A stretch of 64,000 nucleotides of DNA from Natrinema halophilum (GTDB lineage: Archaea; Halobacteriota; Halobacteria; Halobacteriales; Natrialbaceae), in the NCBI RefSeq assembly GCF_013402815.2, contig NZ_CP058601.1, positions 124,001 to 188,000 on the forward strand, written 5' to 3'. Positions 5,008 to 41,563 of this stretch are shown one piece after another (positions within the stretch are counted from its first letter, which is position 1; each line of letters begins with the position of its first letter). Both the position numbers and the translations under genes were made by a program. The notes beneath the pieces are model-generated. The model was not told the DNA's origin, made no database searches, and saw only the letters and a list, made by a program, of their open reading frames with translations.

Positions 5008-8000
5008 ATGAGTACACGATCGGACGCCACCGACGAGGTTTTCTGGGGGGACACGAACGACGAGGTGGCGCTCGAACGATATCGAAGGCTCGTCGAGGCG
5101 ATCGGCGACGGGATCTACCAGCTCGATACCGACGGAAATTTCGTCGCGGTAAACGAGACGATCGTCGAGATAACGGGCTATACTCGGGGCGAACTCCGCG
5201 GCGAACACGTTTCACTCCTTCTAGATGCGGCCGATGTGGACTCGATCGAACGCAAACTCTCCGATTATCTGACTGCGGATGCAAGCGAGATCCCCGCCTT
5301 CGAACTCGCCGTTCGCACCGCCGACGGGGACAGAATCCGCTGTGAAGTCCAAATAACTCCGCTTACGGACCAAGACGAGTTTCGGGGAACGATCGGCGTC
5401 GTCAGAGTTCGCTCCGAGGGACCGCAACCGACCGCACTCGACTCGGTCCGACCGTCGTACGAGTCGATTTCCAATATTTTAGACGAGACGAACGTCGGCG
5501 TGCTCGTCCTCGACGATGCGCTCGACGTCAGGTGGATCGACGAGACAATCGAGGAGTATCTCGGTCTCGACCGCGAAGCGGTCGTCGGACGAAACAAACG
5601 CAGGGTGATCGAGGAGACGCTTACGGGGATGGACATCAACCCCGACTCGTTCGCCGAAACCGTTCTCGCGGCGTACGACGACGACGAGTACATCGATCAC
5701 CTCGAGTGTCGGGTCACCGGCGATGGGGACGGCGAACTCGAGGACCGATGGCTCGAGTACCAGAGCAAGCCGATCACGTCGGGACGGTACGCCGGCGGGC
5801 GGATCGAACTCTACTACGACATCACCGATCGAAAGCGGTCGGAGGACTCCCTTCAGGAGCGCCAGGAAGCGTTTCAATCGCTGGTCGAAGCGGTCGAGGA
5901 GTACGCTATCTTCCGACTCGACCCCGATGGGCGTGTCATTAGCTGGAACAGAGGTGCAGAGCGGATCAAAGGCTACGACCCCGACGAGATCATCGGCGAA
6001 CACTTCTCGACGTTTTATACGGAGGCGGACCGCGCGGCGGACGTACCCGAACGGAACCTCGAGACCGCACTCGAGAACGGCTCCGTCGAGGACGAAGGGT
6101 GGCGTCTCAGAAAGGACGGCACCCGCTTCTGGGCGAACGTGACGATTACGCCGGTGTGGGACGACGGCTCCCATCGTGGATACCTGAAGGTGACTCGCGA
6201 CATGACCGATCGACGGGAGCGCGAGCGGGAACTCGAAAGCGAACTCCATCGCATCCTCAGTCGGATCTCGGATGCGTTCTACGCGGTCGACGACGAGTTT
6301 CGATTCACCCACGTCAACGACCGTGCCGAGGAACTCCTGCAGCGTTCCGAAGCGGACCTACTCGGGGAGACGCTCTGGGACGTATTTCCCGATCTCCGCG
6401 AGATCGACGAGGTCCGGACCGCCTTCCACGAGGCGCTTGAAACCCAGCAGCCGACAAGCTACGAACTGTACTACGACGTCCTCGACTTCTGGGTGGAGGC
6501 GAACCTCTATCCGTCCGAGACCGGTATCTCGGTGTACTTCCGTGACGTAACGGATCGAAAGGAGCGCGAACGTGAACTCGAGCGAACCGAGCGCCGGTTC
6601 GAAGCAATTTTCGAGGATCCGAACATCCTCGTCGGCCTGCTCGAACCCGACGGGACGGTCATCGACATTAATCAAACGGCGATGGAGTACATCGACGCCG
6701 ATCTGGCGGCAGTGACCGGTGAACTGTTCTGGGAGACGCCGTGGTGGGGAGAAGGCGAGGAAATCCGGGCCGACGTGAGAGAATGGACCGAACGCGCCGC
6801 GGACGGCGAGTACGTGAACTTCGAGGCGGATCTTACGCGACCCAACGGGGACCTGTACACCCTGAACGGCGTTTTCAGACCGGTCACGAACGACGATGGC
6901 GACGTCGTTTCGGTCATCGTCTCGGACCGCGACGTTACCGAACGCAAGCAGCGCGAACGCGAACTCGAAGAATCGGAGCAGCGATACCGGACCATCGCGG
7001 AGTACTTTCCAAACGGTATCATCACGTTGTTCGACCACGATCTCGAGTACACGCTGGCGGCCGGTCAGGGCTTCGACCGCATTCCCGTCGACCCCGACGA
7101 TCTGGAAGGGCAGAGCTTCTACGACGTCTGGCCTGCGGGAACGAGCAGCGATCTCGAACCCGCAATCCTTGCCGCGCTCGAGGGGGATGAACAGTCGGTC
7201 GAGCTTTCGTACGCGGGCCGAGAATGGGTCATCCACGCAGTCCCGATCACCGACGAACGCGGCGAAGTCTTCGCCGGCGTAACGATGGCACAGGACATCA
7301 CCGAGCGGAAGGCGAACCAACGCAAACTCGAGAAAACCATCTCGCAACTGGAGGAATCGAACAAACGCCTCGAGCAGTTCGCGTACGCCGCCTCCCACGA
7401 TCTGCAAGAGCCGCTGCGGATGGTTTCGAGTTACCTGCAACTCATCAAAAGCCGCTACGCAGACGACCTCGACGAGGAGGGCGAGGAGTTCCTCGCGTAT
7501 GCCGTCGACGGCGCGGATCGAATGCGCGAGATGATCGACGGCCTCCTCGAGTACTCTCGCGTCGAGACACGGGGCGGTCCGCTCGAACCGGTCGACCTCG
7601 AGGAGATCCTCGACAGCGTTCTGACTGATTTACAACTCCGGATCGAGGAAACCGACGCCGAGATCACGAGAGACGGACTTCCACGCGTCGAAGGCGACGC
7701 AAGCCAGATACGGCAGGTGTTTCAGAATCTCCTGTCGAATTCACTCACCTACAGCGGCGACGACCCACCACGGATTCACGTCGACGCACGCCGCCGGGGC
7801 GATGACTGGGTGATCTCGGTCCACGACGACGGAATCGGTATCGACCCGACGGATCAACAACGCGTGTTCGACGTGTTTCAGCGGCTTCACAGCCGCAACG
7901 AGTATCAAGGAACTGGGATCGGGCTCGCGCTCTGTCAGCGCATCATCGAACGCCACGACGGCGACATCTGGCTCGAGTCGGAACCGGGCGAAGGATCGAC

Positions 8001-8043
8001 CTTTTCGTTTACGCTCCCCGCGGTACCGAACACCGACAAGTGA
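5008..8043 (+). CDS. PAS-domain sensor histidine kinase with six PAS domains
   Basis: A 1011-residue cytoplasmic histidine kinase. I count six consecutive PAS/PAC modules (about residues 25-140, 145-275, 285-405, 410-525, 530-655 and 660-775), each ending in a DITDRK/RDVTERK-type linker. The H-box AASHDLQEPLR follows with the phosphoacceptor His797, then the ATPase domain with an N-box (FQNLLSNSLTYS, about 904), G1 (DDGIGIDP, about 940) and G2 (GTGIGLAL, about 969). No membrane segment or receiver domain is visible, so it senses soluble or redox/light cues through PAS ligands. ATG 5008 is chosen because the upstream in-frame extension does not look coding. No response regulator lies next to it, which is common in haloarchaea. 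Confidence 0.92.
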   Translation: MSTRSDATDEVFWGDTNDEVALERYRRLVEAIGDGIYQLDTDGNFVAVNETIVEITGYTRGELRGEHVSLLLDAADVDSIERKLSDYLTADASEIPAFELAVRTADGDRIRCEVQITPLTDQDEFRGTIGVVRVRSEGPQPTALDSVRPSYESISNILDETNVGVLVLDDALDVRWIDETIEEYLGLDREAVVGRNKRRVIEETLTGMDINPDSFAETVLAAYDDDEYIDHLECRVTGDGDGELEDRWLEYQSKPITSGRYAGGRIELYYDITDRKRSEDSLQERQEAFQSLVEAVEEYAIFRLDPDGRVISWNRGAERIKGYDPDEIIGEHFSTFYTEADRAADVPERNLETALENGSVEDEGWRLRKDGTRFWANVTITPVWDDGSHRGYLKVTRDMTDRRERERELESELHRILSRISDAFYAVDDEFRFTHVNDRAEELLQRSEADLLGETLWDVFPDLREIDEVRTAFHEALETQQPTSYELYYDVLDFWVEANLYPSETGISVYFRDVTDRKERERELERTERRFEAIFEDPNILVGLLEPDGTVIDINQTAMEYIDADLAAVTGELFWETPWWGEGEEIRADVREWTERAADGEYVNFEADLTRPNGDLYTLNGVFRPVTNDDGDVVSVIVSDRDVTERKQRERELEESEQRYRTIAEYFPNGIITLFDHDLEYTLAAGQGFDRIPVDPDDLEGQSFYDVWPAGTSSDLEPAILAALEGDEQSVELSYAGREWVIHAVPITDERGEVFAGVTMAQDITERKANQRKLEKTISQLEESNKRLEQFAYAASHDLQEPLRMVSSYLQLIKSRYADDLDEEGEEFLAYAVDGADRMREMIDGLLEYSRVETRGGPLEPVDLEEILDSVLTDLQLRIEETDAEITRDGLPRVEGDASQIRQVFQNLLSNSLTYSGDDPPRIHVDARRRGDDWVISVHDDGIGIDPTDQQRVFDVFQRLHSRNEYQGTGIGLALCQRIIERHDGDIWLESEPGEGSTFSFTLPAVPNTDK

Positions 8044-8143
8044 AGTCGTCGGTGCCGTCGGACGACACAGCACGTCTGTGCGGGAGTCCGAGCAGATCAC
8101 CGCTGCGCTCGGTTTTAACACCGCTCATTCCGTACGGACGGGC

Positions 8144-9370
8144 ATGACTCCATCCCGATCGGGAGCGCGCGACCCGGCATTTCGATTCGAATACCAGCCG
8201 CCGGCGATCAGATTCGGATCGGGTTGTGTCGACGACCTCGAGGCTGAACTGGAGCGGCGAGGTCTCGAGCGCGCGCTGATCGTTTGTGGGTCGACCGTTG
8301 GGAGCACGGCGGCGGTGATGGAACCGGTCAGATCAGGATTGGGGGACCGACTGGCTGGCGTCTTCGACGAGACGACATCGAAGAAGCGACTCGCGACGGC
8401 GGTCGACGGCCGCGACGCGCTCGAGGCCGCGGACGCGGACGTTCTCGTGAGCCTCGGTGGCGGCAGCAGCTTAGACGTCGCGACGGTGATCAGCGTCCTC
8501 GCCGCTGATGATCGATCGCACGAAGACGCGGGATCGGAATTCGCCGCGCGAGGGACGCTCACCGTTCCCGACGACGGACTGCTTCCGATCGTGACCGTCC
8601 CCACGACGCTCGCCGGAGCCGACCTCTCGATGGTCGCAGGCATCACCGCCGGACCCGACTCGAGCCCGGTCGACGAGGAGAGACGCGGCGGCGTTTCCGA
8701 TCCGGGATTGATGCCTGCGGGCGCGTTCTACGATCCGGAACTCGTCGAAACCACGCCCCGGTCGGTACTCGCGGGCTCGGCCATGAACGGCTTCGACAAG
8801 GGCATCGAGACGCTCTACGCGAGCAACGCGACCCCGGTAACGGATGCGACGGCGAGACACGGCCTCGAGACGTTCGGAGACGGTCTCCGAGCGTTCGGCG
8901 ACGGCGACCGAGACACTGAGACGTTCGAAGCGATCCTCGAGGGCCTGATCCTGGTACAGTACGGAATCTCGCGACCCGGCGAAACCACGGCCTCTATCGT
9001 CCACGCATTCGGTCACGGACTGACGCGAACGGAGGACATCCAGCAGGGGGTTGCTCATGCCATCGTGGTACCCCACGTCCTCGAGTACCTCTTCGAACGG
9101 GACGGCGTGGACGCTCGTTCCGGAACGCTCGCGAACGCGCTCGGCGTCGAAAACGCCGCGGATCAGGCCGCTGCGGTCGTCGAGTCAGTCACCGAGGTAC
9201 GGGACGCACTCGGGCTCCCGTCGCGACTTCGCGACGTCGATGGGCCCGATCGAAGCGAGTTCTCTGCGGTCGCGGAGATGGTTCTGAACGACCCGTTCAT
9301 GGTGAATGCACCGCCTGGACTGGACCCGACGGTCGGGGACCTCGAGGGCGTCCTCGAGGCAGCGTGGTAG
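8144..9370 (+). CDS. Iron-containing alcohol dehydrogenase family protein with altered metal ligands
   Basis: A 408-residue protein with the Fe-ADH/dehydroquinate synthase-like fold: a nucleotide-binding GGGSSLDVA motif near residue 106 and a helical C-terminal half. The canonical metal ligands are mostly replaced. At the place of the usual D...H pair the protein reads MNGFDKGIE (Asn and Lys by alignment at the IE pair). Of the later two histidines, HAFGHGL keeps one, but the PHG histidine is QQG here. The alignment is by eye. The enzyme may use another metal geometry, or act on a different class of substrate without iron. It sits just upstream of a PQQ-type propeller gene on the same strand. 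ATG 8144 is preferred over an upstream GTG at 8078. Confidence 0.8.
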   Translation: MTPSRSGARDPAFRFEYQPPAIRFGSGCVDDLEAELERRGLERALIVCGSTVGSTAAVMEPVRSGLGDRLAGVFDETTSKKRLATAVDGRDALEAADADVLVSLGGGSSLDVATVISVLAADDRSHEDAGSEFAARGTLTVPDDGLLPIVTVPTTLAGADLSMVAGITAGPDSSPVDEERRGGVSDPGLMPAGAFYDPELVETTPRSVLAGSAMNGFDKGIETLYASNATPVTDATARHGLETFGDGLRAFGDGDRDTETFEAILEGLILVQYGISRPGETTASIVHAFGHGLTRTEDIQQGVAHAIVVPHVLEYLFERDGVDARSGTLANALGVENAADQAAAVVESVTEVRDALGLPSRLRDVDGPDRSEFSAVAEMVLNDPFMVNAPPGLDPTVGDLEGVLEAAW

Positions 9371-15856: not shown

Positions 15857-15916
15857 CAAATCGTCGATCACCGGACCAAATCGTCGATCACCGGACCAAA
15901 TCGTCGATCACCGGAC
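15857..15916. repeat. Threefold perfect 20-bp tandem repeat
   Basis: The unit CAAATCGTCGATCACCGGAC occurs three times without mismatch. It lies 60-120 bp upstream of the propeller B start codon (minus strand), so it could be a multi-site operator or simply a minisatellite. No palindrome longer than TCGATCA-like cores is visible within the unit. Confidence 0.9.
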
Positions 15917-16027
15917 GACTTCTCCAGGCTTCGGACGGCTCATATCGGTCCCAATCCCCGTTCGGCAGTTGTCCAAATCTCGCTCACCCGGGTCATGGAT
16001 ATCTCTCGAGAAACCACGCGGTTGCCA

Positions 16028-16074
16028 CACAGTACGCTCTCTTTCTCGCCAGCACAGTACGCTCTCTTTCTCGC
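16028..16074. repeat. Direct repeat, 22 bp conserved with 25-bp period
   Basis: The sequence CACAGTACGCTCTCTTTCTC plus GC occurs at 16028 and again at 16053, separated by CAG. It is about 60 bp beyond the stop of the winged-helix gene and 230 bp upstream of propeller B. The pyrimidine-rich half makes it look unlike coding DNA. Confidence 0.85.
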
Positions 16075-35584: not shown

Positions 35585-36439
35585 CTACTCTGTTGCTGCA
35601 GTAGCACGTGATCGGATTCGCCTGGCGCGGGCGATCAGCGGCGCATCGATCATCTCTCCGTCGACGGCGAAGACGCCTCGGTCTTCAGCCTCGGCTTCTC
35701 GCTTCGCTTCGAGAACGCGTTCGGCCCACTCGCGCTCCTCGGCCGACGGTGTAAACGCTTCGTTTATCGGCTCGACCTGCGTGGGGTGGATAGCGAGTTT
35801 CCCGTCGTAGCCCAACTGGATCGCGAACTCAGTGTCCTCTCGGAGTGCGGCTTCGTCCTCGAAATCGGAGACGATCGTATCGATCGCCGGACAGTCGTTC
35901 GCCGCTGCCGCGAGGACGACGCGTTCTCGAGCATAGAGCACCTCGGTTCCCTCGGTGGTTCGGCTCGCACCGATGTCGGCCGCCAGATCCTCGGCTCCGA
36001 ACACCAGTGCGTCGGTCGCCGAGATTGCAGCGATTTCCGGCGCTGCGAGGATGCCGGCGGCACTCTCGAGGAGCGCAAGAATCGGTAGCGATTCGCCACG
36101 GGTCTCGAGTCGAGTCTCGAGGTCGCGAACGTCCTCAGGCGACCCGACTTTCGGGAGCAGTACGGAATCGAGACCGCTAGTAGTGCCGTTGGTCAGCAGG
36201 GCCTCGAGGTCGTCAGCTAGGTCTGGTTCAGTCGCGTTGATTCGAACGCAAACTTCGCAGTCGGGATCGAAGTCGGGGTCAGAGAGTACGTCACGAACGG
36301 CTTCCCTGGCTTCCCCTTTTCGTCCGGGCGAAACGGCATCCTCGAGATCGAAAATGATTACATCGGCCCCTGATTCGTGTGCTTTGCGACACATTTCCGG
36401 TCGGTCCCCGGGAGTGAATAACATGCTTCTTCGGGCCAT
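35585..36439 (-). CDS. HpcH/HpaI aldolase, CitE-like (malyl-CoA or beta-methylmalyl-CoA lyase type)
   Basis: A 284-residue CoA-ester lyase. The start RRSMLFTPGDRPEMCRKA and the metal-site motif DVIIFDLEDAVSPGRK (residues 26-41) are standard for the CitE family. VCVRINATE, LPKVGSPEDV, ALLESAAGI and GAEDLAADIG complete the barrel; the Glu in ALLESA and the Asp in EDLAAD are probable Mg ligands. In haloarchaea such proteins act as malyl-CoA/beta-methylmalyl-CoA lyases or thioesterases of the methylaspartate cycle. Glutamate dehydrogenase next door fits, but the other cycle genes are not in the window. Confidence 0.85.
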   Translation of the reverse strand: MARRSMLFTPGDRPEMCRKAHESGADVIIFDLEDAVSPGRKGEAREAVRDVLSDPDFDPDCEVCVRINATEPDLADDLEALLTNGTTSGLDSVLLPKVGSPEDVRDLETRLETRGESLPILALLESAAGILAAPEIAAISATDALVFGAEDLAADIGASRTTEGTEVLYARERVVLAAAANDCPAIDTIVSDFEDEAALREDTEFAIQLGYDGKLAIHPTQVEPINEAFTPSAEEREWAERVLEAKREAEAEDRGVFAVDGEMIDAPLIARARRIRSRATAATE

Positions 36440-37045
36440 ACGGGGAGATTCGAGTCCAGCACCAAAGTCGTAGGCGTTTTCATGTGATCGATTCGTCGCG
36501 TCGTTCAGGTGCGCAAAAATCGATCAATTGGAAAGGAATCGGGGTGATTCTACGTATTCCGAATCCGAACTCGGAATCATAACCGCGAGGTCGACGACCG
36601 TAGACGATCGACCTCAAACGAGATCAGACGCCACAGGGATACGTTTCTGGCGGGGTTTCGCTCCTTTCCTTGCCGAACGGATGGAGCGCTTCGCTTTCGT
36701 CGACGGAGACGAACCCATCGTATCGATCCGGTACCACCGTCCATACGTAGTTGCTACCCTCGTACGTTGGACCGTAGACGATCCCGATCGCGCGATGGCC
36801 GCGAGGATCGGCGATGGAATCCTGTTCTGAGCGATCTGCTACGCCGACTCTCCGATCGAACTCGATAATTTCGTTTTCGAGTCCGGTTCGGTGGAAGACG
36901 TCCTCGTAGCTGCCCGCCGATGCCTCGGGAACCAGCATCCGCTCCATCTTTGTACCCCATTCGTCGCCAGCGATAACGGTTTCGCGAAATGAACCGAAGC
37001 TGACGACGGCGACGAACGAGAAATCGTCCTCCTCGAGCAAACGAG

Positions 37046-37101
37046 CCGTCAACCGCGCCCGTATTCGGTAGTACCGTCAACCGCGCCCGTATTCGGTAGT
37101 A
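37046..37101. repeat. Twofold 28-bp tandem duplication that breaks a reading frame
   Basis: Two perfect 28-bp copies run from CCGTCAACCGCGCCC to TATTCGGTAGTA. The unit is one base more than a multiple of three, so the duplication shifts the minus-strand frame. Deleting one copy would restore a continuous open frame. Confidence 0.95.
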
Positions 37102-37236
37102 CTCCGACGTACTGCGGGAGGCCTCGCCCGGGAGGACCACGTCAGCATCGCCGATGCCGATCACGAGATCGGCGAATCCCTCCTCGATAGGGGTCGTGCG
37201 CTCGACGACCGCCTCGGCCACCCGTGTTGGATCAGT

Positions 37237-37432
37237 GTCTGCCAATTCGAATCGATGTGGGAGTGTCTGCCGATTCGAATCGCCGTGGGAGTGTCTGCCG
37301 ATTCGAATCGCCGTGGGAGTGTCTGCCGATTCGAATCGATGTGGGAGTGTCTGCCGATTCGAATCGCCGTGGGAGTGTCTGCCGATTCGAATCGCCGTGG
37401 GAGTGTCTGCCGATTCGAATCGATGTGGGGTC
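37237..37432. repeat. Seven-unit 28-bp minisatellite with inner palindrome
   Basis: Seven units start at 37237 with a 28-bp period. Each contains the 12-bp palindrome CGATTCGAATCG (first unit AATTCGAATCG). Two variants differ at two bases after the palindrome (ATGTGG, type A; CCGTGG, type B) in the order A-B-B-A-B-B-A, so an 84-bp three-unit block was itself duplicated. The array is 195-390 bp upstream of the MaoC start on the plus strand and within the broken minus-strand gene. Confidence 0.95.
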
Positions 37433-37626
37433 ACGTACGTCACCCACGCAGATATCTCGCGCGAAGCAGTGCCGACCCCTCTTGCGTGCGTCGGTCGGAC
37501 TTGCGACGAATTGGTTCCGCCAACCCGACGGATCGGGCTCGAACCGTCGTCTCGATAGGGTGTGTTCGGACCGCTCACGCTCGATCGAGCGACGCGTTTT
37601 TGTGGTCACTGTACGATTTCTGCCCT

Positions 37627-38094
37627 ATGACTGGCTTGTACTATGAGGAATTCACCGTCGGCGAGACGATCGATCACGAGCGCCGGCGGACCATCTCTGA
37701 GAGCGATAATCAGCGCTTCTGTGACATGACGATGAACCAGCAACCCCTGCATCTCGACCGGGAATTTGCTGGCGACACCGAGTTCGACGAGCGACTCGTC
37801 AACGGCCTTTACACGATGTCGTTGGCTGTCGGCGTCTCGATCCCGGAAACGACCGACGGGACGATCGTTGCGAACCTCTCCTACGATAGCGTCGAACACC
37901 CTCATCCGGTCTTCCACGGCGACACGATTCGAGCCAGATCGACGGTCACGGACAAGCGCGAAACCAGCGACGGCGAGCGCGGAATCGTCAGCATGCACGT
38001 CGAAGCGTTCAACCAGAACGACGATCTCGTCTGCGAGTTCGATCGAACGGTTCTCTCGCTGAAACGCGAACACGCCACAGAAGGCGGGGATTGA
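37627..38094 (+). CDS. MaoC-family dehydratase (hot-dog fold)
   Basis: A 155-residue single hot-dog protein of the MaoC/(R)-enoyl-CoA hydratase type. It has FTVGETIDHERRRTISESDNQRFCDMTMNQQPLHLD, where the usual catalytic Asp/His pair of hydratases (D..N..H) is seen as DMTMNQQPLHLD near residue 38. ANLSYDSVEHPHPVFHGDTIRA and the C-terminal strand FNQNDDLVCEFDRTVL complete the fold. It would hydrate an enoyl-CoA or mesaconyl-CoA-like substrate. ATG 37627 is chosen because the in-frame DNA upstream is the 28-bp repeat array. Confidence 0.88.
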   Translation: MTGLYYEEFTVGETIDHERRRTISESDNQRFCDMTMNQQPLHLDREFAGDTEFDERLVNGLYTMSLAVGVSIPETTDGTIVANLSYDSVEHPHPVFHGDTIRARSTVTDKRETSDGERGIVSMHVEAFNQNDDLVCEFDRTVLSLKREHATEGGD

Positions 38095-39387: not shown

Positions 39388-39757
39388 AGGCTCCCCGCCG
39401 GGGTCGAACCGGAGTCTCGTGCCACCGGGAGCGGATGCTGTTTTCAGGCCACGGGGTATTGTTATGAGAACCATAGTTGCCGATACGAATCCGTTAAGAG
39501 GACGTAACTGCTCGAACTCGTCGGTCGCCATCGAACGTGTGGACAACAGTCGGACACGTATCACTGCGTTGAGGACGAAAGCGGCCTGTCGTCCCGTCGC
39601 GGGCCATCGTCCCGTCGCGGCCTGTCGTCCCGTCGCGGCCTGTCGTCCCGTCGCGGCCTGTCGTCCCGTCGCGGGCCATCGTCCCGTCGCGGCCTGTCGT
39701 CCCGTCGCGGCCTGTCGTCCCGTCGCGGGCCATCGTCCCGTCGCGGGCCGTCGTCCG
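39388..39757. other. 370-bp intergenic region dominated by a minisatellite
   Basis: The region lies between the acyl-CoA carboxylase stop and the DUF5658-like start, both minus strand. Positions 39586-39747 are a ninefold 18-bp array. The remaining 200 bp hold no credible gene but include the likely promoter of the DUF5658-like gene around 39455-39495 (GTATTGTTATGAGAACC region). Confidence 0.6.
39586..39747. repeat. Ninefold 18-bp minisatellite
   Basis: Nine full units of the form CTGTCGTCCCGTCGCGGC occur with no indels, and a tenth is partial. Variant units begin CCATCG and some end GGG. The unit is open in all frames and would encode a six-residue repeat on either strand (CRPVAA-like or TTGRDG-like), but no start, homology or neighbour supports translation. 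Confidence 0.95.
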
Positions 39758-41563
39758 CTAGAGAATAGTGCCGTGTTTCTTCGCCGGCCGCGACTTCTCG
39801 ACGTCGGCGTAGAAGTCGAATCGGGCTGCCAGTTCCTCGCGGAGCGCGCTCGGTGGAACGAGTTCGTCGATGACGACCTCGCTCGCCATTCGGTGGATAT
39901 CGATGTCCTCGCGGTACTCCTCGCGAAGTTCCCGTTCCATCCGCTCGCGTTCTTCGGGGTCGTCGATATCAGCGAGCTTGCGGGCGTAAACGGCATTGAT
40001 TGCCGCTTCAGGCCCCATTATGGCGATCTCTCCCGAGGGAAGGCCGATGACGCTTTCCGGATCGTAGGCGGGACCGCCCATCGCGTAGATACCCGCTCCG
40101 TAGGCCTTGCGAAGAACGACCGTCTGCTTCGGGACTGTGGCTGAAGATGTGGCGTAGATCATCTTCTTGCCCTGCTCTAAGATACCATCTTTCTCTACCT
40201 GCGCGCCGGCCATGAACCCGGGGGTGTCACAGAGGTATAGTAAGGGAATATTAAACGCATCAGATTTCCAGATGAACTCCGCGGCCTTTTCGGCCGCGTC
40301 GGGGAATATCGCCCCGGCACGATGAGCCGGTTGATTGGCGACGATGCCGATCGGCCGACCGTCGATTCGGGCGTAAGCGGTAACGATTTCGGCACCGTAA
40401 TCCGGTCGTAACTCGAGAAGAGATCCCTGATCGACGAGCCGATCGATCACGTCCGTGACGTCGTATCCGCGGTTTGGCTCCTGGGGAATTACCGCGTCAA
40501 TCTCGGCGGGGGGCTTCGCCGGCTGTTTCGGCTCGCGGGTCGGTGGTTTTTCGTCGGCGTTGTCGGGAAGGTAGGCGATCAGTCGAGCCACGAGGTCGCG
40601 GGCGTGTTCCTCGTCGGTCGCAACGAGATCAGCCGACCCAGACTCGCGTGCGTGGACTGTCGGTCCACCGAGTTCCTGCAAGTCGATATCCTCGCCGGTG
40701 ACCATTTGCACCATCCGCGGGGACGCGATCGCCATCGCGGACATCTCTTCGACCATGATGGTAAAATCGGCGAAGACCGGCGTGTAGGCCGCGCCGGCGA
40801 TACACGGCCCATAGAGGACGCATATCTGGGGAACCCGGCCGGAGAGCATCGAATGGTTGTAGTAGTACTTCCCGATACCTTCCCGGTTAGCGAAAAATCC
40901 CGTCTGCTGGTCGATCCGGCCGCCCGAGGAATCCATCAGATAGAACACGGGCTTTCCTGTCTTCAGGGCGCGCTGTTGCATCCGCAGGAATTTTTCGACG
41001 CCTTTGGCGGCCATACTCCCTCGCTTGACGGTGTAATCGTTGGCCATTACGTGAACGTCGCGGCCCTCAAACGTCGCTGCAGCCGTGATGAGGCCGTCCG
41101 CGGGAAGGCGGTCACCCTCGCCGCTAGACTCGTCGTCTGCCGTCCCTCGCGGGTGCCAGTCGTCGAACGCCGCAAACGTCCCGTCCTCGAAGCACAGCTC
41201 ACTGTCCGGGCCGGAGAACCATAGCTCGAGTCGGTCGCGGACGAACAGTTTTCCTTCGTCGGCAAGCTGGTCCTTGTACTTCTGGGGACCACCGTCGAGA
41301 ATGTCGGCGATTTCGTCTTTCAGTTTCCGTTCGCGCTCGGTCGGCCCCAGTTCGTCGGCGCTCGTGCGTTCGACGGATTTTTCGCTCGCGTTTGCTTCGT
41401 TCTCGACCGAACTCTCAGATGACGGTTCACTGTCGTAAACTGTCGTCGGGTTCGTCTCGTCGCCGACGAACACCTCGACTGTCTCCCCGACGTAGGCAGC
41501 GAGGGCGGTCGCGATCGCCGCAGTTTCATCGTCGGTGGCACCAGCTGCGATGCGAATTTGCAT
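39758..41563 (-). CDS. Acyl-CoA carboxylase beta (carboxyltransferase) subunit with PccX-like N-terminus
   Basis: A 601-residue carboxyltransferase that moves CO2 from biotin to propionyl- or acetyl-CoA. From about residue 80 the two crotonase-like halves are intact, with PVFYLMDSSGGRIDQQTGFF, CVLYGPCIAGAAYTPVFADF, LYLCDTPGFMAGAQVE and the oxyanion loops AIASPRMVQMVTGED and VVLRKAYGAGIYAMGGPAYD. The first 36 residues (RIAAGATDDETAAIATALAA then YVGETVEVFV) resemble the separate small PccX/epsilon-type subunit of haloarchaeal carboxylases, joined by an acidic linker. No biotin carboxylase gene is in the window. Confidence 0.88.
   Translation of the reverse strand: MQIRIAAGATDDETAAIATALAAYVGETVEVFVGDETNPTTVYDSEPSSESSVENEANASEKSVERTSADELGPTERERKLKDEIADILDGGPQKYKDQLADEGKLFVRDRLELWFSGPDSELCFEDGTFAAFDDWHPRGTADDESSGEGDRLPADGLITAAATFEGRDVHVMANDYTVKRGSMAAKGVEKFLRMQQRALKTGKPVFYLMDSSGGRIDQQTGFFANREGIGKYYYNHSMLSGRVPQICVLYGPCIAGAAYTPVFADFTIMVEEMSAMAIASPRMVQMVTGEDIDLQELGGPTVHARESGSADLVATDEEHARDLVARLIAYLPDNADEKPPTREPKQPAKPPAEIDAVIPQEPNRGYDVTDVIDRLVDQGSLLELRPDYGAEIVTAYARIDGRPIGIVANQPAHRAGAIFPDAAEKAAEFIWKSDAFNIPLLYLCDTPGFMAGAQVEKDGILEQGKKMIYATSSATVPKQTVVLRKAYGAGIYAMGGPAYDPESVIGLPSGEIAIMGPEAAINAVYARKLADIDDPEERERMERELREEYREDIDIHRMASEVVIDELVPPSALREELAARFDFYADVEKSRPAKKHGTIL

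Follow-up and report, generated by a model that had tools for sequence, protein, structure and literature searches.

Gene content of the locus

The window analysed was a stretch of 64,000 nucleotides from Natrinema halophilum (contig NZ_CP058601.1, positions 124,001 to 188,000), and all positions given below are those of the window unless another locus is named. A putative pseudogene of the erythromycin-esterase family (PF05139), running from a GTG start to a TGA stop, was identified on the minus strand (36624..37443) by a Pfam match and by alignment to seven intact homologues. It was flanked on one side by an HpcH/HpaI (citE/RipC-like) lyase gene (35585..36439, minus strand), which was intact and free of stops, and on the other by an intact, divergent MaoC-domain dehydratase gene (37624..38094, plus strand). 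The nearest NCBIfam models of these two neighbours were citE/RipC and RipB, all below cut-off.

The MaoC gene was also the divergent neighbour of the esterase gene in the relatives G017, G021 and G015, and several other relatives had the lyase and MaoC genes with no esterase between them. The space between the two varied among relatives and may hold other genes. An esterase homologue was not found in 19 of the 28 same-genus relatives, and the homologue of G017 (about 7863-9214 of that locus) carried a 1-nt frameshift near GTEWG, by which this copy is broken independently. Since it was absent from so many relatives and broken in G017, the esterase gene is accessory, dispensable and patchy in distribution. 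Low GC3, weighed as an indication of decay, was rejected because the neighbouring intact genes were low too.

The family PF05139 covers EreA/B/C/D and uncharacterised homologues. The C-terminal piece of the window gene (142 codons) resembled them with a score above the Pfam cut-off (E 2.6e-19; 70.6 bits, cut-off 26.4), but the window copy was without the central part and the catalytic residues of the family, and its match spanned only positions 257-357 of the 358 in the profile. Same-genus relatives G015, G021, G022 and G023 had uninterrupted genes of 452-462 codons with no stop; the G021 protein covered the whole profile (E 1.2e-117), and the intact relatives at the same locus had the whole domain with its GEASHG, VEGDW and WAHNTH motifs. 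The scores of these relatives fell well short of the NCBIfam cut-offs for EreB and EreD, so macrolides need not be the substrates even of their proteins. A profile search of the own genome, in which a moved copy of the missing middle was sought, found no other PF05139 match, and a read-through protein scan of the genome contigs gave one weak match, which was unrelated.

Tandem duplications within the gene

A perfect tandem duplication of 2 x 28 bp was present at 37046..37101 on the minus strand (TACTACCGAATACGGGCGCGGTTGACGG on the coding strand, the codons of YYRIRARLT), and it shifted the reading frame. A sequence-only reading of the locus had described this repeat as the only obstacle that splits one gene into two frames, leaving a choice between a reversible switch and a fresh pseudogene. 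The units 37046-37073 and 37074-37101 were indeed identical on checking, and the period-28 tract extended by one more matching base to 37102. When one copy was removed, the two frames joined without a stop and remained open to the TGA at 36624-36626, giving the expected 308 codons when counted from the GTG at 37578. For the open frame, in which there was no other stop or frameshift, the duplication was the only obstacle, but not for the gene, the catalytic core of which was missing. With up to two mismatches allowed, the unit had two sites in the 4.84-Mb genome, both of them those of the duplication. The actual window had 10 rows (five distinct arrays) of perfect tandems with a period of at least 15, and 20 second-order Markov versions of it had none, so the duplication was not due to chance.

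A 7-copy array of another 28-bp unit was located at the 5' end of the gene (37234..37429, minus strand), with unit variants alternating in a higher-order period of 84 bp. Its six extra copies amounted to 168 bp or 56 codons and kept the frame, and its sequence was not found elsewhere in the 4.84-Mb genome. The intact homologues start with VSHVTAQRFESADTDP or a near form of it, while the window gene had VTYVTPHRFESADT, then six more 28-bp units, and then DPTRVAEAV. Because the homologues open with the same stretch in one copy, the array is the gene's own opening codons in expanded form (RFESADT, in units of the form xxRFESADT). It had earlier been taken for a second, unrelated array, which was right with regard to the other 28-mer and wrong in so far as it consists of the gene's own 5' codons and is not foreign.

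The homologue alignment also moved the start of the gene. It supported a GTG at 37441..37443 (minus strand), where VTYVTPHRFESADT aligned with VSHVTAQRFESADT, so that the start according to the homologues would be GTG 37443 (or 37434) in place of the GTG at 37578 first proposed, and the frame from 37578 takes in upstream non-coding sequence. A homologue search, which had been suggested along with the sequence-only reading, was fruitful: intact full-length relatives existed in the same genus, and G015, G021, G022 and G023 each had a single copy of both 28-bp units, the 37046..37101 unit being single-copy in every homologue.

Internal deletion and loss of the active site

The N- and C-terminal matches were adjacent in the window gene and 245-253 codons apart in each intact homologue, which placed the junction of an internal deletion, in frame and about 245-253 codons long, at 37004..37013 (minus strand, GTCGCCGTCG), where FVAV of the N-terminal part was joined to VSFGSF of the C-terminal part. 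In the homologues the ends of the deleted part read GTCGCxGTCG and GTCGCC...GTCG, both close forms of the junction, which is what a short-homology deletion would be expected to show.

The deleted part included the VEGDW and WAHNTH motifs. The hydrolytic water of EreC is coordinated by H50, E78 and H289, and earlier mutants at the equivalent residues had reduced activity or none (PMC7979712). In the window gene the H50 position was occupied by Arg, while those of E78 and H289 lay within the deletion. The Arg codon (CGC, 37114..37116, minus strand) replaced the catalytic His of GEA(S/T)H, a motif of all intact homologues, its role being taken from H50 of EreC (PMC7979712), and the codon after it was AGT (Ser) in place of Gly, which changed GEASHG to GEASRS. 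In homologue G023 the spacing from His to Glu was 28 residues, as in EreC, and that from Glu to His was 207 versus 211 in EreC.

Other conserved positions were changed as well. According to the homologue alignment, the invariant Trp of YPWG, close to the C-terminus, was replaced by Cys (TGT, 36633..36635, minus strand). The seven intact homologues had 179 invariant columns, of which 113 were deleted in the window gene, and 11 of the 66 retained ones were changed. When the close relatives G015, G021, G022 and G023 were left out in turn and treated in the same way, only 1-5 of 67-71 retained columns were changed. The dN/dS of the remaining codons against relatives was 0.16-0.30, and among the intact genes it was a little lower (0.12-0.23); the rise was small, as the loss may be later than much of the branch. 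With the core deleted and invariant residues changed, the 308-codon product could not be regarded as an intact gene.

Probable decay of the gene and alternative explanations

Compared with its intact orthologues the window gene carried more than one independent lesion, namely the internal deletion, the catalytic replacement and the frame-shifting duplication. From these comparisons the feature is very probably a pseudogene in decay, derived from an accessory hydrolase gene of the erythromycin-esterase family, and not a reversible switch, and of the two possibilities first offered it was the fresh pseudogene that these lesions supported. The comparison showed that an in-frame deletion between short direct repeats took out about 250 codons and with them two water-coordinating residues, that the remaining one of the three, a His, became Arg, and that other invariant residues differ. 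It also showed a frame-breaking tandem duplication of 28 bp in what is left of the N-terminal part, and an amplification of the first codons to seven units of 28 bp. Probably the gene had already lost its use by the time of the duplication, or lost it shortly afterwards. Both tandem events may have come from the high duplication rate of the genome, through slipped-strand or short-homology replication errors, with no selection for their removal. The decay would have comprised a loss of need for the gene, the deletion, the substitutions and the tandem duplications, in whatever order. The decay would be young, since both parts of the frame were still open apart from the 28-bp duplication, and the catalytically dead fragment may conceivably keep some function. 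Short-homology deletion and tandem duplication give rise to ordinary prokaryotic pseudogenes, which likewise show multiple independent lesions in one accessory gene, and the window gene had nothing notable to set it apart from them save its two separate 28-bp tandem events.

A phase-variation switch, in which gain or loss of one 28-bp unit would turn a functional protein off and on, could be suggested by the perfect copies, the period not divisible by three and the frame that opens without one copy, but it can hardly be credited here. The 'on' product would lack every one of the three water-coordinating catalytic residues, along with about 250 codons; inactivating changes, which the sequence-only reading had itself named as the mark of a dead gene, lay on both sides of the repeat (the long deletion, and the replaced catalytic His and invariant residues); and no homologue had a repeat at either 28-bp site. 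Since the intact homologues were full-length with one copy of each unit, the repeat was no conserved device. In phase-variable contingency loci with non-3n tandem repeats, such as those of Neisseria, copy number shifts the reading frame as it does here, but the window repeat had two copies only, no functional ON state and no conservation in relatives. Known contingency loci are also built of many short units, in comparison with which two copies of 28 bp are a poor substrate. Among the papers listed in a literature search on tandem-repeat phase variation in haloarchaea, none was directly relevant. Slippage could still delete a copy, and the product would then be without an active site, so that an enzyme of the family results from neither state.

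The truncated frame might otherwise encode a new, shortened, non-enzymatic protein which was disturbed only recently by the duplication. Both the deletion and the 5' array were in frame, with no further stop or frameshift, which speaks for this reading; nevertheless it is very improbable, since most of the family domain was deleted, changes at invariant residues were in excess, and a similar short form existed in no relative. An artefact is scarcely plausible either: the duplication (or the deletion), known from a single assembly, might be an assembly error, but the genome was in 3 contigs with high completeness, and the replacement of the catalytic His and the other substitutions would hold regardless. 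Moreover, short-read assembly tends to collapse repeats and not to create them. For the decaying pseudogene, which is preferred, the significance as a gene is small, as it would be one more pseudogene. That a frame opens once a repeat is removed does not prove the gene to be a working one, and the missing core was visible only against intact relatives.

Tandem arrays across the genome

The density of tandem arrays was compared in a 400-kb sample from each of six genomes, the own genome and five same-genus relatives. Distinct perfect arrays with a period of 15-120 numbered 24 in the own genome, against 7 in G021, 2 in G009, 9 in G017, 3 in G014 and 6 in G023. No perfect arrays were found in the 17-18-kb loci of the five relatives. 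Given this excess in the genome, the duplication in the esterase gene looks like background mutation, and no special mechanism need be invoked for the two tandem events of this one unneeded gene. A codon-score scan, of which the score is crude, gave no clear case of a second coding frame broken by a non-3n duplication.

It is possible, though doubtful, that the lineage has an unusually high rate of short tandem duplication, with changes of array copy number as a main source of both gene inactivation and in-frame protein change. If so, the esterase gene would be an example of each, its 2 x 28 bp repeat breaking the frame and its 7 x 28 bp array keeping it. What may be of use in these observations is the excess of arrays, which suggests that replication or repair differs in a lineage-specific way.

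Other arrays were also observed in the window. An 18-bp array of about 10 copies (39581-39756) was located directly after the stop of a carboxyltransferase gene (39758-41563) and at the 5' side of a DUF5658 frame. In addition, 20- and 25-bp tandem arrays were present at 15857-15916 and 16024-16074, within about 200 bp of each other.
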